64,000 nt of DNA from Flavobacterium micromati (lineage in GTDB: Bacteria; Bacteroidota; Bacteroidia; Flavobacteriales; Flavobacteriaceae), in assembly GCF_900129585.1 (NCBI RefSeq), contig NZ_FQWF01000005.1, positions 1 to 64,000 on the forward strand, in the 5' to 3' direction. Shown here piece by piece: positions 51,642 to 64,000 of this stretch. The first letter of the stretch is position 1; the number at the start of each line of letters is the position of its first letter. A program made the translations under genes and the position numbers. Under the pieces are notes generated by a model. It saw only the letters and a list, made by a program, of their open reading frames with translations, had not been told where the DNA came from and did no database searches.

Positions 51642-52015
51642 TGCTTCTTATTGGATTTTTGCAAAAATACGCCTAAAAAACAGTTTAAGTCTAATTTTTA
51701 ATTAAAAATATAGTGGAATCATTAAATAATTTTAATTTATGCAGCTACATGCTATTCGATAAAAGTAAATAAATTTTGTTTTTTTGTCTAATCTAAAAAA
51801 TCTGTTTTGCTGTGTATCATAATTTTAAATTATTTTATGAAATAGTTGATACCATTTATGTTTTGAATTTACTGTTAAAAAGAATTGAAATTTGTCAGGT
51901 TGTACACATCATCATGATTATAGTAAAACACGAAACGTTGTTTGTAAGTCGTTCGTAATCTCGACTGCGCTCGATTTGAAAAAAACATGACAGTAATTTC
52001 AAAGACTATTTAGTA
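51642..52015. other. Intergenic gap with a dispersed-repeat-like element
   Basis: 374 bases with no gene. Position 51958-51976 carries ATCTCGA-CTGCGC-TCGAT, an inverted repeat resembling the TCGAGCGCAGTCGA element scattered in Bacteroidota genomes. No tRNA or other gene was found. Confidence 0.5.
51958..51976. repeat. TCGA...CTGCGC...TCGA inverted repeat, dispersed element remnant
   Basis: A short palindromic unit in an otherwise AT-rich gap; its likeness to a repeat seen widely in flavobacterial genomes is from memory. Only one copy is visible in this window. Confidence 0.45.
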
Positions 52016-52543
52016 TTAGTATTCAAATCGCTCTATAACCGCATTAAATTCAGATTCATTAGACCATTTTTGAGAGATAGTTTGATTGTGAATTTCAATA
52101 ATTCTTGGTTTAAATTCTGCAAGTATTCCATTAGCAATTAAATAGATTACAGCTTGTTCAAAGGAATTAAACATGCTTTTGTAAAATAGTTCGTGCTTGA
52201 TTATATTTTCTGAGGCAAAGGTTTGTGCAATTTCAATATTATACAACATTACATCAGCGATTAAAAAAGGATCCACACCAAGAACAATAAAATGTTTGAT
52301 ATATTTTTGAGCAACTGAACGTCTCATCTTTGGTTTACTCCTTCTTCCTAATTTTTTAAAAGGAAAATATTCCTGTGAAATTTTTAATTTGCATTGCTGC
52401 AAAAGCGTTTCTTCCTTTGGATTAAAAACAAAATCATAATAGACTTTCACTGGACTAAATTTCTCGTACAATTCGACGATCTGTTCTTCGAGTTGTTCTT
52501 TATTTAATTCTGCTAAATATTTTTTTAAATCGCGTTTGCTCAT
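52016..52543 (-). CDS. DUF6155-like conserved protein
   Basis: About 175 residues starting at 52543 (MSKRDLKKYLAEL); a TTG two codons upstream is not needed. The N-terminus with KRDLKKYLAELNKEQLEEQIVELYEKF and the mid motif PKMRRSVAQKYIKHFIVLGVDP resemble DUF6155 proteins. No catalytic motif or membrane segment is evident; it appears a soluble helical protein. Function unknown. Confidence 0.75.
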   Translation of the reverse strand: MSKRDLKKYLAELNKEQLEEQIVELYEKFSPVKVYYDFVFNPKEETLLQQCKLKISQEYFPFKKLGRRSKPKMRRSVAQKYIKHFIVLGVDPFLIADVMLYNIEIAQTFASENIIKHELFYKSMFNSFEQAVIYLIANGILAEFKPRIIEIHNQTISQKWSNESEFNAVIERFEY

Positions 52544-52645
52544 TATCAAAGTTTAAGAATACAAAAGTAAATTACTTTAGTAATCCGTGCACTTAAAATC
52601 AATGTTAATACTTATTTTTGCAGATTAAAATTAAAAATAATTAAA

Positions 52646-52924
52646 ATGCTTAAGATTTTTAAAGTTACCGCAATTGTAGAAGGAATCTCTGCCATTCTAT
52701 TATTTTTCTTTGCTATGCCAATGAAATATATTTTTAATGATCCTTATTATGTTAAACATATTGGAATGGCCCACGGAGTATTATTTACTTTATATATTGT
52801 TCTAGCAACAATCCTTTATTTTAAAGAAAAGTGGGATTTTAAGAAATATTTTATCATTTGTATTGCGTCAATTCCTCCTTTTGGTACTTTTTACATAGAA
52901 CGAAAATATCTTAAAAATGTATAG
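52646..52924 (+). CDS. DUF3817 family membrane protein
   Basis: A 92-residue protein with three hydrophobic helices and the opening FKVTAIVEGISAILLFFFAMPMKY, typical of DUF3817. Such small proteins are widespread in Bacteria and of unknown function. Its stop overlaps the start of the MscS gene by eight bases, so the two are likely translated from one message. Confidence 0.85.
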   Translation: MLKIFKVTAIVEGISAILLFFFAMPMKYIFNDPYYVKHIGMAHGVLFTLYIVLATILYFKEKWDFKKYFIICIASIPPFGTFYIERKYLKNV

Positions 52925-54176
52925 TTATGTGGAGAAGTTATTTCATCTTCTATATCCTATTTTTAGAAAATGGGGATTAGGAAGTAGCTCTGCTTCGTAC
53001 TTAAGTTTGCTGTTAAATATTGTATTACTATGCTTCTTAGCGTACGGTATTTATATAATTTTCAGGCTCACTCTAGTTACCATAATGGTTTTAATTGCTC
53101 AAAAAACTAAAACAAAATTTGATGATTTACTAGTAACTAATAAGACTGCAAAATATATTGCACATTTAATTCCGTTGCTATTTATTTATAAATCAGTACC
53201 AATAATTTTAGATCGATATCAATACTGGGAGGATATATTTGGAAAATTTGTTGGTATCTATATCGTCGTATTGCTTTTATGGATCGTCCGAACTATTTTC
53301 AATGCGTTACGTGACTATTTAAAACTAATGCCGCGCTATAGCGACAAACCTATTGACAGTTTCATTCAGGTTATTATGATTGTGTTATGGGCTTTTGGGA
53401 TTGCAGTAATTATTTCCAAATTATTTAATATCAATCAAAAAGAACTTTTAACTATTTTAGGAGCTGTTTCGGCAGTAATTATTTTAATATTCAGAGACAC
53501 TATTTTAGGATTTGTTTCAAGCGTTCAAGTTTCTATCAACGACATGGTTCGCATAGGTGATTGGATTACAATGGATCGCTTTGGTGCTGATGGTGATGTA
53601 ATTGAAATAAATCTAGCTACCGTAAAAGTTCGAAATTTTGATAATACAACTACTACTATTCCTACTTATAGTTTGAGTTCTGATTCCTTTCAAAACTGGC
53701 GAGGAATGCTTAATTCTGATGGAAGACGAATTAAAAGACATATTCTTATAAAAACAAGTAGCATTCGATTTTTAGAAGAAGCGGAATTAGAAAACTTAAA
53801 AAAAATTCAACTGTTATCGACTTTTATCGACACTAGAAAAGTAGAAATTAACAATTATAATTCAATCCATAACATTGACAAGTCTTTGCCTATCAATGGT
53901 CGGAATATGACTAATTTGGGTTTATTTAGAAAATATATCACCGAGTATTTACACCAGCATCCATCATTGAATAAAGATATGTTAATGCTGTGTCGTCAGT
54001 TACAATCAACCTCGCATGGAGTTCCGCTTGAAGTTTACGCATTTTCGAGCGATAAACGATTTGAAAATTACGAATATATTATGTCAGATATTTTTGATCA
54101 TGTTATTGCTTCGGTGCGTTATTTTGACCTAGAAATTTTTGAAACTTTAACAGAAAACCACGATTTAACAACTTAG
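52917..54176 (+). CDS. MscS family mechanosensitive channel (YbdG-like)
   Basis: A 419-residue membrane protein of the small-conductance mechanosensitive channel family. About five transmembrane helices precede the pore helix and MscS beta domain with the segment DMVRIGDWITMDRFGADGDVIEINLATVKVRNFDNTTTTIP. The size matches E. coli YbdG/MscM (415 aa). It should open on membrane tension during hypoosmotic shock. Co-translated with the DUF3817 gene. Its 3' end is antisense to a decayed thioesterase. Confidence 0.88.
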   Translation: MYSYVEKLFHLLYPIFRKWGLGSSSASYLSLLLNIVLLCFLAYGIYIIFRLTLVTIMVLIAQKTKTKFDDLLVTNKTAKYIAHLIPLLFIYKSVPIILDRYQYWEDIFGKFVGIYIVVLLLWIVRTIFNALRDYLKLMPRYSDKPIDSFIQVIMIVLWAFGIAVIISKLFNINQKELLTILGAVSAVIILIFRDTILGFVSSVQVSINDMVRIGDWITMDRFGADGDVIEINLATVKVRNFDNTTTTIPTYSLSSDSFQNWRGMLNSDGRRIKRHILIKTSSIRFLEEAELENLKKIQLLSTFIDTRKVEINNYNSIHNIDKSLPINGRNMTNLGLFRKYITEYLHQHPSLNKDMLMLCRQLQSTSHGVPLEVYAFSSDKRFENYEYIMSDIFDHVIASVRYFDLEIFETLTENHDLTT

Positions 54177-54177
54177 T

Positions 54178-54567
54178 TGAGTTTGAAAGGTGTCTTATTT
54201 TTTTTATAATCGATCTTTTTACAAAGTCGATACTTAATTTTCCTTGAGCTTTTGGTTTTCCATTTTCATCTAAATTTACTATTGTAGTTTGTGCATTCAT
54301 CATATTTCTAGCCGCACTTTTTAAAGTTATTGAGGTATTTCCAAATTTTATAATATCAATCCCAATTTCTATAATTTTTACTTGTTGTTCGGAACTTACA
54401 AAATTAATTTCCGTCAACTACTTTGCGAGAGCTTTAGTATTTTAAAGTTGGATTATGTTATGCCCATTGAGTTCTTGATCAATCCGAGCTGATAACTTAT
54501 CCTAATTTAAAGTTCCATTGGAATTCAAATCGTCGAGTTTAATCGATTTTCGGATTTGAAATCTCAT
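54178..54567 (-). pseudogene. Decayed acyl-CoA thioesterase (4HBT/hot-dog family)
   Basis: Reading the minus strand from an ATG at 54567 gives RKSIKLDDLNSNGTL, then IDQELNGHNIIQL, EINFVSSEQQVKIIEIGID, KFGNTSITLKSAARN and VNLDENGKPK, which follow the YciA-type thioesterase order (KPEDLNANGTLFGG, WIDEEA, VTKFM, INFVSSAKQGDIIEIG, GTTSITL, DENGKP). Three in-frame stops (codons 22, 42 and 50) and missing residues, including most of the GG loop, break it. The reading frame itself is not shifted. The 3' end is approximate, near the converging MscS stop. Confidence 0.85.
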
Positions 54568-54636
54568 AATTTTTTTTTCAAAGTCATAATTTTAATCTTT
54601 TTCTATTGCATTTTTTTTTACTTTTAAAGAAAAAAA

Positions 54637-55023
54637 ATGAACACACGCGATACTTTTATTTCACAACTCCGAGGACAGGCAATTGGTACAATATCTTTAG
54701 AATCCACAATGGAAGAATCGTTCCAAAATGAAACTCTTAGACCGATTTTAAAATTACAAAATGATCTTTTTACCGCCGCCTTTGCAAGTTATATTGAAAA
54801 AAATAAAATTGATTTTGAGACTAAAACTGTTGAGGCTAAATTAGTAGTTATTGATAATGCAATACAAAAAGATATCAAATTCAGTAATACAATGAGAGGT
54901 ATTATTATTGGCTTATTCACAGCAGAAGAGTATGCTATCTATTCAAAAAACACTTCAAGTATCAATAAAAGAATGATGAGTATGTTAATGGAACGATTAA
55001 AAAGCCAAGTGCAACTTTTTTAA
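54637..55023 (+). CDS. Conserved small protein, function unknown
   Basis: A 128-residue soluble helical protein (MNTRDTFISQLRGQ...KSQVQLF). It has a regular amphipathic pattern, no signal peptide, no transmembrane helix and no motif that I can name. I recall similar flavobacterial proteins annotated as glyoxalase, but none of the metal-ligand positions of the glyoxalase fold are visible, so I do not use that name. Downstream, a 301-base gap with no gene leads to the amidoligase operon. Confidence 0.75.
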   Translation: MNTRDTFISQLRGQAIGTISLESTMEESFQNETLRPILKLQNDLFTAAFASYIEKNKIDFETKTVEAKLVVIDNAIQKDIKFSNTMRGIIIGLFTAEEYAIYSKNTSSINKRMMSMLMERLKSQVQLF

Positions 55024-55324
55024 AAATTAGCAAAATTTGAGAAATAGCATTTCGAGCTAAAATATTATTTTTTAAACTTAACTATTCATTTCTTAACAAA
55101 CAGATCGTTTTTAAGCAATATTATCTTCTTATTTTGCAGTATCAAATCGCTTACGATAGATTTTGCTTTATTGATAATATTAAAATTAATAAATTCCATA
55201 GAACTATTTTATCAATTTTTTATATTTTAAGATTGTTTGTCTTTTATCTAATAATTATCAATGTAAAGTTTAAAATTATCATTTTATCATATTTATTTTC
55301 ATTACACTTGTTAAAACTAGATAT
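55024..55324. other. Intergenic gap upstream of the amidoligase operon
   Basis: 301 very AT-rich bases. A short hydrophobic reading frame exists but has no support. The operon promoter is expected here; no clear TAnnTTTG box with a -33 element was found. Confidence 0.45.
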
Positions 55325-56038
55325 ATGAAGGAAGAGTATTTTAAGTGGCATTCACCATATTTAAATCGAGAAATTGAAATGCTTGTTTTTGGACATGCTG
55401 GATATCCTGTTGTATTATTTCCAACTTCGATGGGATCGTACCATGAAAACAAAGATATGGGATTGATCGAGTCGGCAAAATGGTATATTGAGCAAGGGCT
55501 TATCCAAATTTTTTGTCCGGATAGTGTCGATAAAGATAGTTTCTATAACAAACAAGTTCATCCCCTTCATCGTATCAAGAATCATGTTCAATATGACAAA
55601 ATGATTTGTCATGAAATTGTTGAAAGAGTAAAAAATAATACCCCTTCAGGAAAAGTTGCTGTTGCAGGGTGCAGTTTTGGCGGTTATCACGCTGTTAATT
55701 TTGCGTTTCGACACCCTGGTTATATAAGCCATGTTTTTTCTATGAGTGGCGCATTTACAATAAAAAATTTCATGGATGGTTTTCATAATGATGATGTATT
55801 TTACAATAGTCCAGAAGATTATTTATATGGATTAAACGATCATGAAATATGGAAAATGGATATTGTTCTAGGAACTTCAAACTGGGATATTTGTTTTGAT
55901 GCGAATCTAAAAATGAGTAAAGTATTAAACGAAAAAAATCTAGATCACTGGCTGGATATTTGGCAAGATCAAAAACACGATTGGCCGGTATGGAAGGAAA
56001 TGTTTCCTCATTATTTATCAAGAATTAATTTTTTTTAA
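55325..56038 (+). CDS. Putative esterase (alpha/beta-hydrolase fold), first gene of the amidoligase operon
   Basis: A 237-residue alpha/beta-hydrolase of the esterase-D/putative-esterase type. The nucleophile elbow is AGCSFGG with Ser117, and the C-terminal KHDWPVW holds the catalytic His218. There is no signal peptide. Followed by the ATP-grasp gene after 18 bases. In such clusters an esterase or peptidase may process the amide-linked product or its precursor. Substrate unknown. Confidence 0.85.
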   Translation: MKEEYFKWHSPYLNREIEMLVFGHAGYPVVLFPTSMGSYHENKDMGLIESAKWYIEQGLIQIFCPDSVDKDSFYNKQVHPLHRIKNHVQYDKMICHEIVERVKNNTPSGKVAVAGCSFGGYHAVNFAFRHPGYISHVFSMSGAFTIKNFMDGFHNDDVFYNSPEDYLYGLNDHEIWKMDIVLGTSNWDICFDANLKMSKVLNEKNLDHWLDIWQDQKHDWPVWKEMFPHYLSRINFF

Positions 56039-56056
56039 AAATATAAACTAACAAAG

Positions 56057-57004
56057 ATGAAAAAAATAGGAATTTTATTTGGAATGGAAGATACTTTCCC
56101 ACAAGCATTTATAGATAGAGTTAACTCAAAAAATGAAAAAGGAATTATTGCTGAAGCCGTTTCTATTGATAAGGTTGTGCAGAACCAAGGTGGCGAATAT
56201 GCCGTTATTATTGATAGAATTTCGCAAGATGTTCCGTTTTACCGTGCTTATTTGAAAAACGCAGCTTTGACGGGCACAAATGTGATCAATAATCCTTTTT
56301 GGTGGAGTGCTGACGATAAGTTTTTTAATAATGCACTTGCGGATACTTTAGGAGTCCCACTTCCTCATACCGTGATTTTACCTTCGGCTGAACATCCTAC
56401 AGATACGACTGGAAAATCTTTTAGAAATTTAAAATACCCAATGGACTGGGAAGGAATATTTGATTACATCGGATTTCCTGCATATATGAAACCGTATGCT
56501 GGAGGTGGCTGGAAAAATGTGTACCGCCTAGAAAACAAAGAAGAATTTTGGGAAAAGCATCAAGAAACGGGACAGTTGGTTATGATGTTACAAGAAGAAA
56601 TTGTTTTTACTGAATATTTTAGAGTGTATTGTTTAGGTGGAAAAGCAGTCCGAATTATGCAATATGAACCCAGAAATCCACATCACTTGCGTTATGTTAT
56701 TGATGGCGCAGCTACTGATAAAAAATTACTTGCAACGGTAAAAGATTATACGTTACGTCTTTGCAAAGGATTGGGATATGATTTTAATACCGTAGAATTT
56801 GCAGTACGTGATGGAATTCCTTACGCTATTGATTTTGGAAATCCAGCTCCGGATGCAGAATTAACTTCGGTGGGTGCTGAAAATTTTGAATGGGTTGTTG
56901 AAGAAGCGGCTAAAATGGCTATCGCTGCTGCAAAAAAGCAAAAAGCTGGAAAAATGAATTTAACTTGGGGAACATTTATAAAAGATGCTGCCGCTGGAAA
57001 ATGA
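56057..57004 (+). CDS. ATP-grasp ligase, RimK-like
   Basis: A 315-residue ATP-grasp enzyme, which forms an acyl phosphate and joins it to an amine or thiol. The ATP-binding Lys145 lies in GFPAYMKPYAGGGWKN, a glycine-rich loop follows, the adenine hinge is LQEEI (residues 178-182), and the Mg-binding residues Glu247, Asp259 and Asn262 sit in VEFAVRDGIPYAIDFGNP. It lies between an esterase and a GCS2 ligase. Substrates cannot be told from the sequence. Confidence 0.9.
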   Translation: MKKIGILFGMEDTFPQAFIDRVNSKNEKGIIAEAVSIDKVVQNQGGEYAVIIDRISQDVPFYRAYLKNAALTGTNVINNPFWWSADDKFFNNALADTLGVPLPHTVILPSAEHPTDTTGKSFRNLKYPMDWEGIFDYIGFPAYMKPYAGGGWKNVYRLENKEEFWEKHQETGQLVMMLQEEIVFTEYFRVYCLGGKAVRIMQYEPRNPHHLRYVIDGAATDKKLLATVKDYTLRLCKGLGYDFNTVEFAVRDGIPYAIDFGNPAPDAELTSVGAENFEWVVEEAAKMAIAAAKKQKAGKMNLTWGTFIKDAAAGK

Positions 57005-57044
57005 TGTGGATTTATTATCCTATTTCCTTTAGCCCAAATAGTTT

Positions 57045-57054
57045 CGATGCATCG
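57045..57054. repeat. Short palindrome in the ATP-grasp to GCS2 gap
   Basis: CGATGCATCG, a 10-base perfect palindrome within the 103-base gap. Its meaning is unknown; it could be a decayed hairpin or a chance palindrome. Confidence 0.35.
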
Positions 57055-57107
57055 GGAGAATAGCGACGCGAACTGACCAAGTATAAAGCGCCTAAAAAAA
57101 TATACTA

Positions 57108-58214
57108 ATGAAAAAGCTACCAATATTTACACTTGGTGTAGAAGAAGAATATCAAATTATAGATCCAGAAACTAGAGATTTGCGCTCGCATTTGTCTAAG
57201 ATTGTTGATGGTGCAAAGATAATTTTGAATGAGCAGGTAAAAGCTGAAATGCACCAGTCGGTGGTGGAAGTGGGTACTAATATTTGCAATAATGTAAACG
57301 ATGCTCGAAATGAAATTCGGTTTTTGCGCTCTAAAATAGTTGAATTAGCTGATAAGCAAGATTTAATTGTTGGTGGCGCGGGAACGCATCCTTTTTCAAA
57401 ATGGCAAGATCAGCCTATTACTGATGATCCGCGTTATCACGATATTGTCAATGAACTGCAAGATGCTGCTCGTTCTAACCTAATTTTTGGAATGCATTGC
57501 CATGTGGGAATTGAAAATAGGGAAATAGGTTTGCAATTAATGAACCAAGCTACTTATTTCTTGCCTCATATTTTTGCTCTTTCTACTAATTCGCCTTTTT
57601 GGGAAGGTAGACAAACCGGGTATAAATCATTTAGAACCAAGGTTTTTGATAAATTTCCTAGAACCGGTTTACCAGAGTATTTTGACTCCGTTGAAGCATA
57701 TCAAAACTTTCTTGATACATTAGTAAAAACAAAATGTATTGATAACCCGAAGAAGATATGGTGGGATTTGCGTTTGCATCCATTTTTTAACACGATTGAA
57801 TTTAGGATATGTGATATGTGCTTAACGGTTGATGAAACCATTTGTATTGTCGCCATTATCCAAGCAATTGTAGCTAAACTCTACAAATTAAATATCAACA
57901 ATACTAGTTTCAATATATACAGATTAGCGCTTATTAAAGAAAATAAATTTCGCGCTGCTCGCTACGGAATTGAAAATAATATGATCGATTTTGGTTTGCA
58001 GCAAGAGGTTGAGACTAAAATGCTGATTCTTGAATTACTTGATTTTGTTGATGATGTAGTTGATGAATTAGGGAGTCGTGATGAAATTAATTTTGTTCAC
58101 GAAATTTTAAAAAATGGAACTGGAGCTGATAAGCAATTAGCAGTATTTAATGAAACTAGTGATCTTTCACGTGTTGTCGATTTTATAACGGGAGAATTTA
58201 CAAAGGGATTGTAA
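57108..58214 (+). CDS. GCS2-type carboxylate-amine ligase (YbdK-like)
   Basis: A 368-residue enzyme of the glutamate-cysteine ligase type 2 family (YbdK/GCS2). The opening TLGVEEEYQIIDPE has the catalytic/metal-binding acidic cluster, and later FGMHCHVGIENREIG and DLRLHPFFNTIEFRICD are family landmarks. YbdK has weak glutamate-cysteine ligase activity; many homologues instead ligate other amines. Between an ATP-grasp and a glutamine amidotransferase gene, it is one of three candidate amide-bond formers in the operon. Confidence 0.93.
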   Translation: MKKLPIFTLGVEEEYQIIDPETRDLRSHLSKIVDGAKIILNEQVKAEMHQSVVEVGTNICNNVNDARNEIRFLRSKIVELADKQDLIVGGAGTHPFSKWQDQPITDDPRYHDIVNELQDAARSNLIFGMHCHVGIENREIGLQLMNQATYFLPHIFALSTNSPFWEGRQTGYKSFRTKVFDKFPRTGLPEYFDSVEAYQNFLDTLVKTKCIDNPKKIWWDLRLHPFFNTIEFRICDMCLTVDETICIVAIIQAIVAKLYKLNINNTSFNIYRLALIKENKFRAARYGIENNMIDFGLQQEVETKMLILELLDFVDDVVDELGSRDEINFVHEILKNGTGADKQLAVFNETSDLSRVVDFITGEFTKGL

Positions 58215-58250
58215 AATAATAAATTATCTTTGCATCTCTCTAATTAATAA

Positions 58251-59087
58251 ATGATTATGCTTAACGAAATAATTAAAATTGCCCTTTTAGATATGTACAA
58301 TGGAGAACCTAATCAGGGCATGCGTTGTATTATAGATGTGGTAAATCGATTTAGTCCAGTGATAAGTTTTCAAATATTTGATGTTCGTGGCAAATGTGAA
58401 TTACCCGAAATTAATAAATTTGATATTTATATATCTACTGGCGGCCCAGGAAATCCCTTGATAGGAGACGGAAATTGGGATGTGAAATATTATCAATTTA
58501 TCGATTCACTGACAAAATGGAATAACGAAAATACAGTTAAAAAGCACGTACTATTTATTTGTCATTCGTTCCAGATGGCATGTTTGCATTTTGGACTAGC
58601 CACGGTTACAAAAAGGAATGATACTTCTTTTGGAGTAATGACTATTCATAAAACTAAAGAAGGCGTTAATGATTCGCTTTTTGAAGGATTAGCAGATCCC
58701 TTTTACGGAATCGATTCTCGCGATTATCAAGTTGTTCAACCCAAATTAAGTGTTTTTGCTAAAAAAGGAGCAAAAATTATATCACTTGAAAAAATTAGAG
58801 ATCATGTGCAATATGAACGTGCGATAATGGCAGTGCGTTTTACCGACTATTTTGTTGGTACACAATTTCATCCAGAAGCCGATCCTATAAGTTTTGTGAT
58901 GCATTTACGAAATAAAGTAGCAAAAGAAAAAATGAAAAAAATGAAAGGTGAAAAAAAATTTCGAGAAATGCTGGAAGATTTAATGGATGATGATAAAATC
59001 TATAAAACAAATGAAACTTTGATTCCCAATTTCCTTCGTACTGCAATTAATGATTTATTGAAAACAAAGAAAATGTTATCTAATTAG
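58251..59087 (+). CDS. Class I glutamine amidotransferase-like protein
   Basis: A 278-residue class I (GMP-synthase-like) glutamine amidotransferase fold. The triad is Cys104, His207 and Glu209 (FHPEA), and STGGPGNP (residues 62-69) is the typical early motif. The nucleophile loop is unusual: FICHSFQ instead of the GxCxGxQ consensus, losing both glycines around the Cys. It probably supplies ammonia to one of the adjacent ligases, or has become a peptidase-like hydrolase. A C-terminal ~55-residue Lys/Met-rich tail is extra. Confidence 0.87.
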   Translation: MIMLNEIIKIALLDMYNGEPNQGMRCIIDVVNRFSPVISFQIFDVRGKCELPEINKFDIYISTGGPGNPLIGDGNWDVKYYQFIDSLTKWNNENTVKKHVLFICHSFQMACLHFGLATVTKRNDTSFGVMTIHKTKEGVNDSLFEGLADPFYGIDSRDYQVVQPKLSVFAKKGAKIISLEKIRDHVQYERAIMAVRFTDYFVGTQFHPEADPISFVMHLRNKVAKEKMKKMKGEKKFREMLEDLMDDDKIYKTNETLIPNFLRTAINDLLKTKKMLSN

Positions 59088-59102
59088 TAAATTTCTAAGT
59101 TT

Positions 59103-60293
59103 ATGATTTCAAAATATCGGGAGTTGTTTAATGCTCAGTTTACAGATCAAAAATATCAAGATTTTAAAAGTGATATCTCTTCCGATTTTAATTATTTGCC
59201 CACTTTTAGAGTGGCCGAAACTCCATTTTTTATTCCGAAAACCTTAAAAGCGCAATTAATTGACGGATGTAGTGAAGTTATATCTTTTATTAAACAAAAA
59301 AACTTTAAAATTCTTACAGACAAATCTTTAGAGCTTAATCATAAAGTTCCCAATGAAGACGAACACACTACTTTCTTGGCTGTAGATTTTGGTATTTGTG
59401 AAGAAAATGGAGAAGTTGTACCTAAACTAATTGAAGTACAAGGTTTTCCTTCGTTATACAATTATCAAGCTAACCTTTACGAAAAATTTAAAAATCAATA
59501 TCCGTTTTTAGAAGAATTTACTCCTTTTTTTGATGGGATTGAAAGCCAGCGCTATCAGGATATTTTAGAGGAAGCAATTTGTAATTACCATCCTAAAGAA
59601 AATGTAATTCTGCTCGAAATTGAACCCGAAAAGCAAAACACAAAAATCGATTTCTATTACTGCAATAGAGATATTGGAATTCCAATAGTTTGTGTTACCG
59701 AATTGATAAAAAGAGCAAAGCAGCTTTTTTATAAAAATGAAAAAGGAGATGAAATCCTCGTTAAGCGAATTTACAATCGGGTTATTTTTGACGAACTTGA
59801 TTTGCGAACTGATTTAAAATTGAATTTTCACTTCTCCGATGATTTAGATGTTGAATGGGCAGGTCATCCCAATTGGTTTTTTAGAATCAGTAAGTTCATT
59901 TTGCCTCATCTAAAAGGGAAGTATTTTATAGAAACTACGTTGTTAAGTGAATTAAAAGAAATTCCAGAAGATTTAGAAAACTATGTTTTAAAACCATTGT
60001 TTTCATTTTCGGGAACGGGCGTAATTTTTCATGTAAAAAAGGAAGATATTGAGTCAGTTGTCGAGAAAGAACTTTACATACTCCAGAAAAAAGTAAATTA
60101 CAAGCCGATAGTCCAATCTCCAGATGGAAAAGTAAAAGCGGAGGTTCGTGTACTATGCGTTTGGAAAAAAGGCGACGAAGCTCCTACTCTTCTTTGTAAT
60201 TTAGTTAGATTAAGTCGTGGTGAAATGATAGGAGTGAAATTTAATAAAGACAAGGACTGGGTCGGAGGAACTTTAGGACTTTTTGAGAGGTAA
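59103..60293 (+). CDS. Second ATP-grasp-like ligase, possibly circularly permuted type
   Basis: A 396-residue protein with two ATP-grasp-like segments: an early IEVQGFPSLYNYQ (residues 110-122), recalling the EVNGFPS of circularly permuted ATP-grasp enzymes, and a later YVLKPLFSFSGTGV (294-307) like the nucleotide loop with its lysine. The C-terminal half has KAEVRVLCVW and a KFNKDKDWVGGTLGLFE end. Together these suggest a peptide-bond or amide ligase of the glutathionylspermidine-synthase-like type. Family name tentative; last gene of the operon. Confidence 0.7.
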   Translation: MISKYRELFNAQFTDQKYQDFKSDISSDFNYLPTFRVAETPFFIPKTLKAQLIDGCSEVISFIKQKNFKILTDKSLELNHKVPNEDEHTTFLAVDFGICEENGEVVPKLIEVQGFPSLYNYQANLYEKFKNQYPFLEEFTPFFDGIESQRYQDILEEAICNYHPKENVILLEIEPEKQNTKIDFYYCNRDIGIPIVCVTELIKRAKQLFYKNEKGDEILVKRIYNRVIFDELDLRTDLKLNFHFSDDLDVEWAGHPNWFFRISKFILPHLKGKYFIETTLLSELKEIPEDLENYVLKPLFSFSGTGVIFHVKKEDIESVVEKELYILQKKVNYKPIVQSPDGKVKAEVRVLCVWKKGDEAPTLLCNLVRLSRGEMIGVKFNKDKDWVGGTLGLFER

Positions 60294-60637
60294 TTTAGAT
60301 TTGCCTAAGTTCTTGAAAATAAATAATACCCAGCAGTATCGTAAGTTGTAAAAAATAAAATAATATTTCGAATTTTGTATTTTTTTACGATTTCATCAGT
60401 TATTACCTTGCTAAAATTAGAGAAATACAATTTTAAATACTCTCACAAAATTTTACTATTGTAAAATATTAGACCCTTTTATGACCCTTTTTTGAATTTA
60501 GTAAAGTGATTGTCGTAAATGACTGTTAAAAATTGAAATGTGCAATAATTTAACATTAAAAAAATTAACATAGTTTTTTTTTCGTTATTATTGTATTGTA
60601 AATAGTGTTTGCTAATCAATTTTTAATCTTGGTCACA
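60294..60637. other. Intergenic gap after the amidoligase operon
   Basis: 344 AT-rich bases with no gene and no clear terminator. It should contain the end of the amidoligase transcript and the promoter of the oxidoreductase genes. Confidence 0.45.
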
Positions 60638-61201
60638 ATGAATAGAAGAGAAGCATTAAAGAGTGTTGCGTTTTTGATGGGAAGCGCAATTTCAGCCACA
60701 ACAATGGGCGTTTTATTCGAAAATTTTGTTTTGCCTGAGAAGGAGAAAAACTTCGTGTCGTTTTCTGCCACTGATGAGCAAATTCTCTCTGAATTTGCCG
60801 AAACAATTATCCCAACTACAGCCTCTTCTGCAGGAGCTAAAGCTGCTGGACTCGGTACTTTTATTCCAATGATTATAAGAGATTGTTATCCAGCTAATTT
60901 TCAGAAACTTTTTGCAGATGGATTGAAAGAAATGCAAATCAAATGTTCAGAAGAGTTTAATAAAGACTTTATCGCAATGTCTAACGAGGAGCGTAATCAA
61001 TTGATGTCTTCTTTACGAGATGATGCCATTGCAACAAATAAAGCACCTTCCTTTTTTCTAATTGCAAGAGATTTGACTATTTTAGGATATTATACCTCTG
61101 AAATTGGATGTACGCAAGCTCGTGAATATCTTCCTATTCCCGGTCGATATGACGGAAATGTTCCTTACATAAAGGATCAGAAGGCTTGGGCGACAAACTA
61201 G
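60638..61201 (+). CDS. Gluconate 2-dehydrogenase subunit 3-like protein
   Basis: A 187-residue protein of the gluconate 2-dehydrogenase subunit 3 family. It starts MNRREALKSVAFLMGSAI, a twin-arginine signal that can carry a folded partner across the membrane, followed by FSATDEQILSEFAETIIPTTASSAGAKAAGLGTFIP, a family landmark. The ATG at 60638 is preferred to a GTG 33 bases upstream. In characterised systems this subunit accompanies a GMC-type catalytic subunit, and the GMC gene indeed follows after 49 bases. Confidence 0.9.
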   Translation: MNRREALKSVAFLMGSAISATTMGVLFENFVLPEKEKNFVSFSATDEQILSEFAETIIPTTASSAGAKAAGLGTFIPMIIRDCYPANFQKLFADGLKEMQIKCSEEFNKDFIAMSNEERNQLMSSLRDDAIATNKAPSFFLIARDLTILGYYTSEIGCTQAREYLPIPGRYDGNVPYIKDQKAWATN

Positions 61202-61250
61202 AAATAATTAGAAATAGTGATTATATCAATCTTATTAAAAAATACTTCAC

Positions 61251-62954
61251 GTGAATATAAATACTAATTTAAAAGCGGAAAATACGTATGATGCTATTGT
61301 CATAGGTTCAGGAATTAGTGGTGGTTGGGCAGCAAAGGAGCTTACCGAGAAAGGTTTAAAAGTGCTTATGCTAGAACGAGGAATGAATATTGAGCATATC
61401 AAAGATTATGACTCGGCAATGAAAGCGCCTTGGGAATTTGAACGAGCTGGAAAGCTTACCGCGGAGCAAAAAAGAACGCATCCTGTGCAAACACGAGATT
61501 ATCCGTACAATGAAGCAACCGAAAAATGGTGGGTTAATGATTTAGATTGTCCCTACACTGAGGATAAGCGCTTTGATTGGTATAGAGGTTTTCACGTAGG
61601 TGGAAAATCGCTGATGTGGGGAAGACAAAGTTATCGTTTTAGTGACCATAATTTTGAAGATAATGCCAAGGATGGCTATGGAAATGATTGGCCTATTCGT
61701 TATAAAGATATTGCCAAGTGGTATGATCACGTGGAAAAATTTGCCGGAATAAGTGGTCAGGCCGAAAATTGGCCTCTGTTACCTGATGGAAAATTTTTAC
61801 CACCAATGGATTTAAATTGTGTAGAAAAATCGGTTAAAGAAAGATTAGAAAAACATTATAATAAAACAAGAATACTTACAATTGGTCGTACTGCAAATTT
61901 AACCGTTCCGCACAAAGGACGAGGGAGTTGTCAATATAGAAACTTGTGCAGTCGCGGTTGTCCTTTTGGAGCTTATTTTAGTACGCAGTCCTCTACATTA
62001 CCAGCAGCAATGGCTACCAACCGTTTAACCGTCAGACCCTACTCGATTGTAAATCATATTATATATGATAAAGAAACGAAAAAAGCCAAAGGCGTGATGG
62101 TTATTGATGCAGAGACAAATGAAACAATGGAATTTTATGCTAAAATCGTTTTTGTAAATGGATCTACTTTAGGTTCAACTTTTATATTATTAAATTCTAC
62201 TTCGGAGGCACATCCTAACGGTATGGGAAATGCCAGCGGACAATTAGGTCATAATCTTATGGATCACCCTTTTCGGGTGGGGGCTGAAGGTTCCGCCGAA
62301 GGTTTTGAAGATAAATATACGTACGGACGAAGAGCAAATGGAATTTACATTCCTAGGTATCAGAACATGGGTAATGATAAAAGAGATTATTTACGAGGTT
62401 TTGGTTATCAAGGTGGCGCAAGTCGCGGTTCATGGCATAAAGAAGTTGCTGAATTAGCTTTTGGCGAAAATTTTAAAAATACGATGTCTTTACCAGCTGA
62501 TTCTTGGAGTATGGGATTAGGTGGGTTTGGAGAAATGTTACCTTATTACGAAAATAAAGTGTACATCGACCATAATAAAAAAGATAAGTGGGGACAATCT
62601 GTGCTAGCAATTGATTGCGAATACAAAGAGAATGAAGCAAAAATGCGCGAAGATATGATGAATGATGCTGCCGAAATGTTAGAAGCGTCTGGTATCAAAA
62701 ATGTGCAACCTTATGATAACGATTGTTATCCTGGAATGGCGATACACGAGATGGGTACAGCAAGAATGGGTAACGACCCGAAGGAATCGGTGTTAAATAG
62801 ATGGAACCAAATGCATGAAGTCAATAATGTATTTGTTACTGACGGCGCTTGTATGCCTTCGTCAGCTTGTCAAAATCCATCATTAACTTATATGGCTTTA
62901 ACAGCTCGTGCTTGCGATTATGCGGTAAAAGAACTAAAAAAAGGAAACATTTAG
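61251..62954 (+). CDS. GMC family FAD oxidoreductase
   Basis: A 567-residue GMC oxidoreductase. FAD motif VIGSGISGGWAAKELTEKG is near residues 17-35, the RGFHVGGKSLMWGRQ segment follows, and the catalytic HEMGTARMG with His is near residue 500. A GTG start at 61251 is used because no ATG occurs in frame before the FAD motif. It lacks its own signal; export would rely on the Tat-signalled subunit 3-like protein. Likely periplasmic oxidation of a sugar or sugar acid, with electrons to the respiratory chain; the natural substrate is unknown. Confidence 0.92.
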   Translation: MNINTNLKAENTYDAIVIGSGISGGWAAKELTEKGLKVLMLERGMNIEHIKDYDSAMKAPWEFERAGKLTAEQKRTHPVQTRDYPYNEATEKWWVNDLDCPYTEDKRFDWYRGFHVGGKSLMWGRQSYRFSDHNFEDNAKDGYGNDWPIRYKDIAKWYDHVEKFAGISGQAENWPLLPDGKFLPPMDLNCVEKSVKERLEKHYNKTRILTIGRTANLTVPHKGRGSCQYRNLCSRGCPFGAYFSTQSSTLPAAMATNRLTVRPYSIVNHIIYDKETKKAKGVMVIDAETNETMEFYAKIVFVNGSTLGSTFILLNSTSEAHPNGMGNASGQLGHNLMDHPFRVGAEGSAEGFEDKYTYGRRANGIYIPRYQNMGNDKRDYLRGFGYQGGASRGSWHKEVAELAFGENFKNTMSLPADSWSMGLGGFGEMLPYYENKVYIDHNKKDKWGQSVLAIDCEYKENEAKMREDMMNDAAEMLEASGIKNVQPYDNDCYPGMAIHEMGTARMGNDPKESVLNRWNQMHEVNNVFVTDGACMPSSACQNPSLTYMALTARACDYAVKELKKGNI

Positions 62955-62965
62955 TTTTAAACAGT

Positions 62966-64000
62966 ATGAGAAAATTAAGAATGGGAATGATAGGCGGTGG
63001 TCGTAATGCTTTTATTGGAGCAATCCATCGTCTAGCTGCAAATATGGACGGACTGATAGAATTATCTTGCGGTGCTCTAAGTTCTATACCTGAAATTGCA
63101 TTACTGTCAGCTCAAGATTTATTTCTTCCAGAATCGCGGTCGTACACAAATTATGAAGAAATGATCGTCGCCGAAGCCGCATTGCCATCTGATGTTAGAA
63201 TCGATTTTATTACTATTGTTACACCAAATTTTGCTCACTTTGCGCCAGCGATGATGGCTTTAGAATATGGCTTTCATGTAGTAATTGAAAAACCAATGAC
63301 CTTTTCACTGGAAGAAGCAAAACTGTTACAACAAAAAGTTTTAGAAACAGGACTGATACTTTGTTTGACACACACCTATTCTGGTTATCCAATGGTAAAG
63401 CAAGCAAAAGCAATGATAAATGACGGGAAATTAGGGAAAGTCAGAAAAATTTGGGTTGAATATCCTCAAGGTTGGCTAAGTACGCTTTCTGAAAAAGAAG
63501 GTAATGCACAAGCTGCTTGGAGAACAGATCCTTCAAAATCAGGAAAAAGTTCAGTTATGGGAGATATTGGCACTCATGCTGCACATTTAGCCGAATATAT
63601 TACAGCTTTGAAAATTACTGATGTTTGTGCAGAATTAAATACAATTGTTGAAGGACGTATAATGGATGATGATGGAGCGGTTTTATTGAAATTTGATAAT
63701 GGCGCAAAAGGTGTTCTGATTGCATCACAGGTTGCTACTGGTGAAGAAAACGCATTAAAAATAAGAATTTACGGAGAAAAAGGCGGAATTGAATGGTTGC
63801 AACACGAACCAAATACTTTAATTGTAAAATGGTTGAATGAGCCAACACAGATCTTGCGAGCAGGAACTAATTATGGTTATTTATCTTCTTTTGCAACTCA
63901 TAACTGTAGAACACCAGGCGGACATCCAGAAGGTTATATTGAGGCATTTGCTAATATTTATAGAAATTTTGCACTAACACTCAACTGTAAATTAGAGGGA
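62966..64000 (+). CDS. Gfo/Idh/MocA family oxidoreductase, 3' end beyond window
   Basis: From the ATG at 62966 an open frame of 345 codons runs to the window end without a stop. The N-terminal NAD(P)-binding motif MGMIGGGRNAFIGAIH is followed by the family EKP motif (VVIEKPMTF) and the segment DIGTHAAHLAEYI with the conserved His. The 12-base gap after the GMC gene makes co-transcription likely. The set GMC, subunit 3 and Gfo/Idh/MocA resembles sugar oxidation and keto-sugar pathways. Partial: the C-terminus lies outside. Confidence 0.93.
   Translation, partial: MRKLRMGMIGGGRNAFIGAIHRLAANMDGLIELSCGALSSIPEIALLSAQDLFLPESRSYTNYEEMIVAEAALPSDVRIDFITIVTPNFAHFAPAMMALEYGFHVVIEKPMTFSLEEAKLLQQKVLETGLILCLTHTYSGYPMVKQAKAMINDGKLGKVRKIWVEYPQGWLSTLSEKEGNAQAAWRTDPSKSGKSSVMGDIGTHAAHLAEYITALKITDVCAELNTIVEGRIMDDDGAVLLKFDNGAKGVLIASQVATGEENALKIRIYGEKGGIEWLQHEPNTLIVKWLNEPTQILRAGTNYGYLSSFATHNCRTPGGHPEGYIEAFANIYRNFALTLNCKLEG

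Follow-up and report, generated by a model that had tools for sequence, protein, structure and literature searches.

Our analysis of a 64,000-nucleotide stretch of the Flavobacterium micromati genome (contig NZ_FQWF01000005.1, positions 1 to 64,000, hereafter the window) indicates that five co-directional genes between positions 55,325 and 60,293 probably constitute one pathway for a small peptide-like compound, which would be assembled by successive ATP-dependent amide bonds and not by the ribosome or a non-ribosomal peptide synthetase (NRPS). A previous, sequence-only reading of this DNA had proposed a joint pathway with three amide ligases and an ammonia donor, and its interpretation is partly supported by our results. 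The joint pathway is upheld because gene order is conserved, the genes co-occur even when dispersed, their overlap exceeds that of within-family shuffles, and the fifth gene has a mutually exclusive replacement; the ammonia donor as a needed part is not borne out. The five open reading frames, described by that reading as mostly 15-36 bases apart with one gap of 103, are confirmed with exact coordinates and intergenic gaps of 18, 103, 36 and 15 bases. They are listed here with matches judged by the curated family cut-offs of Pfam and NCBIfam.

55325..56038, + strand: gene 1, alpha/beta-hydrolase of the PF00756 esterase family, 237 amino acids (PF00756 30.9 bits, cut-off 22)
56057..57004, + strand: gene 2, RimK-like ATP-grasp ligase, 315 amino acids (TIGR00768 below cut-off; predicted fold)
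57108..58214, + strand: gene 3 (GCS2), GCS2/YbdK-type carboxylate-amine ligase, 368 amino acids (PF04107 and NF010039 over cut-off)
58251..59087, + strand: gene 4 (GATase), class I glutamine-amidotransferase-fold protein, 278 amino acids (PF00117 over cut-off)
59103..60293, + strand: gene 5 (g5), ATP-grasp of the glutathione synthetase (GSS)/GspS/YgiC fold type, 396 amino acids (predicted fold)

The joint pathway is suggested first by the conservation of these genes as a set. Each of the five proteins was searched at E 1e-3 in the same 296 genomes of one phylum, Bacteroidota, with matches to g5 in 92, GATase in 70, GCS2 in 103, gene 2 in 109 and the esterase in 136 genomes. In what follows, G000 is the host genome, C18 the contig carrying the five genes, and other G and L numbers are further sampled genomes and loci. 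The counts take 108 of the 109 gene 2 genomes, leaving out G227 (E 6e-4), and 64 of the 136 esterase genomes, namely those with best rows of at least about 37% identity plus three adjacent ones at 34-36%; since these esterase rows were hand-picked, the adjacency of the esterase is biased upward. All three ligases (gene 2, GCS2 and g5) are found in 84 genomes from 24 families, two of them in 14 genomes, one in 13 and none in 185, and an orthologue-like esterase from the hand-picked rows accompanies the three ligases in 42 of the 84. In families mixed for both g5 and GCS2, the two are discordant in 5 of 115 genomes. Shared ancestry by itself might produce such overlap; presence was therefore shuffled within families, and for each of the 10 gene pairs 0 of 5000 shuffles reached the observed overlap (10 genomes whose GCS2 rows had 32-40% identity were excluded from the GCS2 set of this test). 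This shuffle is a stand-in for a co-occurrence control by an unrelated gene of middling frequency; BshC, a protein of bacillithiol synthesis, was unusable as such a control because it is matched in 291 of the 296 genomes, 285 of them over its cut-off.

The arrangement of the genes points in the same direction. An ordered, same-strand run of all five, with successive starts less than 8 kb apart, is present in 26 of the 296 genomes and partial runs in others, so that the neighbourhood comparison across Bacteroidota finds the genes co-conserved; in 23 genomes gene 2, GCS2 and g5 lie in three separate places. Among 80 named loci, mostly of Flavobacterium, 74 hold all five genes, and five of the other six are on contigs shorter than 12 kb. 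The order is intact in 65 of the 67 longer loci (66 of the 80, of at least 17 kb, plus the window), the same loci whose flanks were scanned and whose 25 commonest neighbour families were read. The closest relatives of g5 are 88% identical and occur in named Flavobacterium genomes, and many of the close matches presumably come from cold-habitat species, judging by the titles of L002-L081. One metagenome-assembled genome record titled Klebsiella pneumoniae (L027) has a g5 that is 83% identical; this bin is probably misnamed or mixed. Although the gene set is widespread among the Bacteroidota sampled, its occurrence within a genus is uneven; of 18 sampled genomes from the host's genus, 14 have none of g5, GATase, GCS2 and gene 2.

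A further finding concerns the replacement of g5, surveyed in 80 genomes. Fifteen of these have gene 2 and GATase but lack g5, and all 15 carry another permuted ATP-grasp of 451-462 amino acids that is 52-100% identical to the copy at L113. This protein is encoded between gene 2 and GATase in 14 of the 15 genomes and adjoins gene 2 in G290, where GATase is on another contig, while the 65 other genomes give three weak rows only (22-31% identity), to which G219 adds a second weak one. Four genomes (G007, G087, G160 and G287) in which gene 2 has just a distant match (33-44%) contain no g5 and no replacement for it. The profile of the replacement matches the structure 3n6x (E 1.7e-8), which is also the top Foldseek match of g5 (E 7e-13); a direct profile comparison of g5 with the replacement is weak (6.7% probability, E 0.0054). 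Since the two proteins are mutually exclusive and both match 3n6x, a ligase with this fold seems to be required in the slot. It might be argued that these are independent peptide-metabolism genes that travel together, as the 14 genomes with two and the 13 with one of the three ligases could suggest. However, co-occurrence of scattered genes, the outcome of the within-family shuffles and the clear-cut way in which g5 and its replacement exclude each other make such an explanation very improbable.

The nature of the encoded enzymes indicates what kind of pathway this may be. The esterase, the GCS2 and the class I GATase all pass curated cut-offs in profile search, in agreement with the families assigned from sequence. 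GCS2 is a full-length member of its family (PF04107 202 bits, cut-off 21; NF010039 519 bits, cut-off 371), with the YbdK structures 1tt4 (E 9e-50) and 1r8g (E 6e-49) as structural relatives. Its GhExE motif reads GVEEE at residues 10-14, and G10, E12 and E14 are invariant in 16 of 16 rows; PMC2588565 describes this motif as the metal/ATP motif of GCS2/YbdK-type ligases. The cut-offs and the motif place the protein in the carboxylate-amine ligase family, and gamma-glutamyl-amine ligase activity is predicted.

The claim of two ATP-grasps stands as far as predicted folds are concerned and fails at the curated sequence cut-offs, which neither protein reaches; for this reason the folds of both were predicted, from alignments of close relatives. 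With this reservation, neither of the two results that would have overturned the sequence-only reading came about. For g5, no family is over its cut-off (PF03738, GSP_synth, 14.1 of 29.3 bits), so that it is assigned to the GSS/GspS/YgiC fold type and not to GspS itself. Its model (predicted local distance difference test score, pLDDT, 79.7; predicted template-modelling score, pTM, 0.84) best matches YgiC 7uk8 with Z 22.3 at 3.8 Å over 337 residues, followed by YjfC (Z 21.6), GspS (21.2), yeast glutathione synthetase (21.1) and Cp1B (19.8), with RimK at 6.0; the first 23 fold entries have Z of about 19-22 over 322-362 residues. In comparison with bacterial GshB, enzymes of the GSS/GspS/YgiC group show a circular permutation, and the model predicts this permuted ATP-grasp fold over the whole protein. 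Gene 2 scores 31.4 bits against TIGR00768, the RimK family, whose curated cut-off is 143.4, and is called RimK-like and not RimK because that cut-off is not reached. Its model (pLDDT 71.3, pTM 0.72) best matches RimK 5zct with Z 17.9 at 4.2 Å and 261 aligned of 315 residues, next come LysX/ArgX with Z 16-17, and a predicted ATP-grasp peptide ligase fold of the RimK/LysX/Ddl type covers most of the protein. Residues K145, E247, D259 and N262 of gene 2 are invariant in 23 of 23 aligned rows, as are Cys104, His207 and Glu209 of GATase in 18 of 18, and we take these residues to have catalytic roles. Confidence in both models is moderate, and the substrate of g5 or gene 2 cannot be read from fold similarity.

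These folds bear on three other explanations. One is that the cluster makes a glutathione-like thiol, GCS2 forming gamma-Glu-Cys and g5 adding glycine as eukaryotic glutathione synthetase does. A GCS2 enzyme with a GSS-fold ligase indeed follows the logic of glutathione synthesis, but the fold of g5 does not fix its substrate, because GspS, YgiC and Cp1B score like GSS. Moreover, the presence of BshC in the host genome, as in nearly all the genomes searched, suggests that the basic thiol is probably already made; a second thiol would still be compatible with this, and we regard the thiol explanation as improbable. Another explanation is that gene 2 cyclises a ribosomal precursor peptide, as in graspetides, a class of ribosomally synthesised and post-translationally modified peptides. 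The macrocyclases PsnB and AMdnB do match the gene 2 fold (Z 15.3-15.4), but RimK, LysX and ArgX outscore them, and GCS2 and g5 are not known as parts of graspetide systems. Of ten small frames tested in two gaps and flanks of roughly 300 bp, one with 46 codons on the opposite strand behind g5 is matched in 5 of 80 loci and could be seen as a precursor, but the nine others match in 0 of 80, and a graspetide origin appears extremely improbable.

The third explanation, protein tagging, is unlikely, though less so than these two. RimK adds glutamate to ribosomal protein S6, and here a RimK-like enzyme and its partners would modify a protein with amino acids or a short tag, which the GATase-fold enzyme, peptidases or esterase would remove. 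RimK is the closest fold of gene 2, and linked ligases have been discussed in such roles in PMC4431377. In several relatives (L134, L135, L138, L150, L124 and L133) gene 2 carries a Lys/Ala-rich, low-complexity C-terminal tail, absent from the window copy, and such tails could be acceptors. On the other hand, gene 2 is far below the RimK family cut-off, the known functions of GCS2 and GSS/GspS-type enzymes concern small molecules, and no small tag gene was seen in the gaps or short flanks.

The role of GATase needs separate consideration. PF00117 matches with 36.4 bits (cut-off 22.8), and the best solved relatives are 3l7n (E 1.6e-6) and the homoserine O-succinyltransferase 2vdj (E 0.002), in line with a weak similarity to homoserine O-succinyltransferases too. 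However, 34 of the 84 three-ligase genomes have no GATase. In a survey of peptidases of the M29 type, which covered 60 of these 84 genomes (all 34 without GATase and 26 of the 50 with it) and 20 genomes without the three-ligase core, a close peptidase (at least 61% identical to the L139 peptidase, which passes the PF02073 cut-off) was found in 6 of the 34 genomes that lack GATase, and in five of the six it sits between GCS2 and g5, in the slot of GATase. The close peptidase occurs in 0 of the 26 core genomes with GATase and in 0 of the 20 without the core (Fisher test 0.03, relatedness ignored). Another 13 of the 80 genomes, among them eight core genomes with GATase, show distant M29 rows (26-38% identity), which were treated as paralogues. 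Because GATase is so often missing and a peptidase can occupy its slot, we consider it no less likely that GATase is optional or hydrolytic than that it donates ammonia; a required donor is doubtful, and no ligase seems to depend on GATase.

A hydrolytic GATase would also suit the catabolism of amines or amino acids. In the Puu pathway an amine is gamma-glutamylated and PuuD is a hydrolase, and the ligases here might likewise gamma-glutamylate an incoming amine, with the GATase-fold enzyme releasing the product. The intact Cys-His-Glu of gene 4, the peptidase in its slot in five genomes, as a hydrolase would predict, and the hydrolases nearby agree with this explanation. However, three to four ligases are many for a single gamma-glutamylation, GATase is absent from many core genomes, and the only oxidoreductases seen repeatedly among the neighbours belong to an island of sugar type, present at 20 of the 67 loci. 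We therefore consider catabolism quite unlikely.

More support for biosynthesis and turnover of a peptide-like compound comes from a partner set that lies outside the window and was invisible to the sequence-only reading. It includes a fourth amide ligase and peptidases on the same contig, 13.7 kb on from the five genes, and spans C18:71053-77877 (L157:11054-17878) as follows.

C18:71053-73811, - strand: PhoD-like phosphatase and M1-like peptidase genes, after the partner ATP-grasp in the direction of transcription
C18:73953-75167, - strand: partner ATP-grasp, L-amino-acid-ligase-like
C18:75171-76604, - strand: partner M17 aminopeptidase
C18:76657-77877, - strand: partner PF00756 esterase (second esterase)

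The profile of the partner ATP-grasp matches L-amino acid ligases (4wd3, E 4e-25). In a survey of 58 genomes, it was found in 26 of 40 with the cluster and in 0 of 18 without (Fisher test 1.3e-6), and in eight of the 26 (G000, G142, G218, G012, G226, G064, G037 and G013) it is within about 25 kb of the five genes or part of them. The convergent trio of ATP-grasp, M17 aminopeptidase and PF00756 esterase follows g5 within a few kb in 36 of the 67 loci, and in G012 the trio and the five genes form one run. A gene for a GMC oxidoreductase takes this place in 20 loci including the window; both never occur together, and 11 loci have neither. Peptidases recur near the ligase genes.

Taking these results together, we infer a single pathway with a free small product, most likely a small non-ribosomal peptide or gamma-glutamyl amide; the substrates and the order of steps given here are likewise deduced from the enzyme types. 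Carboxylates would be phosphorylated in succession and then attacked by amines. GCS2 would probably act first, joining an amine to a carboxylate that it activates, probably the gamma-carboxylate of glutamate. The free carboxyl end could then be extended by g5 with an amino acid or (poly)amine, and the RimK-like ligase would add another amino acid; the L-amino-acid-ligase-like partner, where present, may make, supply or extend a dipeptide. The GATase-fold Cys enzyme would play an accessory part, either in capping the product with ammonia or in the hydrolysis of a gamma-glutamyl amide. The PF00756 esterase of the run, in which Ser117, Asp188 and His218 are invariant in 14 of 14 aligned rows and likely form the catalytic triad, a role that we presume from the fold, would be a hydrolytic accessory. 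In the host genome, the M17 and M1 peptidases and the second esterase may trim or recycle the product.

Several observations weigh against a single biosynthetic pathway. Any one of the three ligases can be lacking: GCS2 is absent from five genomes that have both g5 and gene 2 (four of one family, and G212), three (G144, G154 and G220) have g5 and GCS2 but no gene 2, and six have gene 2 and GCS2 but no g5. The frequent lack of GATase belongs here too, as do the 14 of 40 cluster genomes without the partner ligase and its distance from the five genes in most of the 26 genomes that have it. Among the 25 commonest neighbour families of the 67 loci no regulator was seen, and the sole transport-like neighbour is an MscS-type channel (46 of 67 loci). 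Finally, the acceptor could be a protein, and the fold models are of moderate confidence.

The immediate neighbours of the five genes in the window are as follows; the gene for the MscS-type channel precedes that for the 128-amino-acid protein.

54637-55023: gene for a 128-amino-acid protein upstream of the esterase gene, without a Pfam match at E 0.1 and kept there in 61 of 67 loci
60605-62954, on to about C18:70980: sugar-metabolism-like run downstream of g5, Gluconate_2-dh3 and GMC oxidoreductase first

This sugar-metabolism-like run also has further oxidoreductase-like genes, a xylose-isomerase-like barrel and a major facilitator superfamily transporter of the nucleoside-symporter family (some names assigned by eye), and may be an insertion. 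In G012, genes for cyanophycin synthetase, cyanophycinase and Asparaginase_2 are directly beside the cluster (L132:11785-16465); a link to cyanophycin was dropped, as PF18921 (CphA), present in G012 and G226, has no match in the host genome. Promoter-like sites number 41 against 26.1 in shuffles (standard deviation 5.3) and terminator-like sites 3 against 3.1, and with an excess of the former but not of the latter, no operon boundary is drawn from these sites. Rfam gave nothing at the gathering threshold in 52000-64000, and PADLOC no family match to the five proteins at E 0.01. In the plasmid collection searched, g5, gene 2 and GATase had no match; the viral contigs gave pattern matches, yet no relative of gene 2 or g5 was confirmed there.

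The wider implication is more tentative, and on it we are almost evenly divided, leaning slightly to doubt. The Bacteroidota may share, across the phylum, an undescribed peptide-like metabolite or cofactor made by up to four types of amide ligase (L-amino-acid-ligase-like, RimK-like, GCS2, and GSS/GspS-type or the enzyme that exclusively replaces it) and degraded or recycled by peptidases and esterases of its own, that is, a second, perhaps non-thiol, 'glutathione-like' chemistry. Because the distribution is patchy within genera, strains with and without the cluster offer natural comparisons, and the ligases of the set make up a defined group, by which the metabolite could be found directly. 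The gene set would also reveal the function of GSS/YgiC-type and PRK13515-type ligases in those bacteria where they are not known to have a role. Bacterial operons that pair ATP-grasp and GCS2-like ligases with peptidases were reportedly catalogued by Iyer and colleagues in 2009; in the open literature searched, whose coverage does not extend to that work, no paper on this gene set or its product was recognised. Each of the enzyme types is known, and amidoligase pairing in operons is already a theme in PMC4431377 and PMC2588565.

Comparison with known systems places the cluster near several of them. Like the route of glutamate-cysteine ligase and eukaryotic-type glutathione synthetase, it pairs a member of a glutamate-amine ligase family with a GSS-fold ATP-grasp; unlike that route, it has in addition a RimK-like ligase, a GATase-fold enzyme and hydrolases, in a genome that already carries BshC. 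GspS and the E. coli proteins YgiC and YjfC are the best fold matches of g5, but g5 shares 12-14% identity with them in aligned pairs, remains below the PF03738 cut-off and matches no amidase domain. RimK and LysX/ArgX are similarly the best fold matches of gene 2, but with 12-15% identity and a score far below the RimK family cut-off. With E. coli YbdK and the PRK13515-type ligases, gene 3 agrees as a full-length member over the cut-off, whereas the two plasmid-borne members whose surroundings were inspected, in Paracoccus and Spirosoma (about 36-37% identity), have no such operon around either. Cp1B (PDB 9cjn), presumably the ligase that acts in E-64 synthesis by fungi, is like g5 a GSS-fold ATP-grasp, but is fungal and works with other partner enzymes. 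E-64 is itself made without an NRPS, according to PMC12568646.

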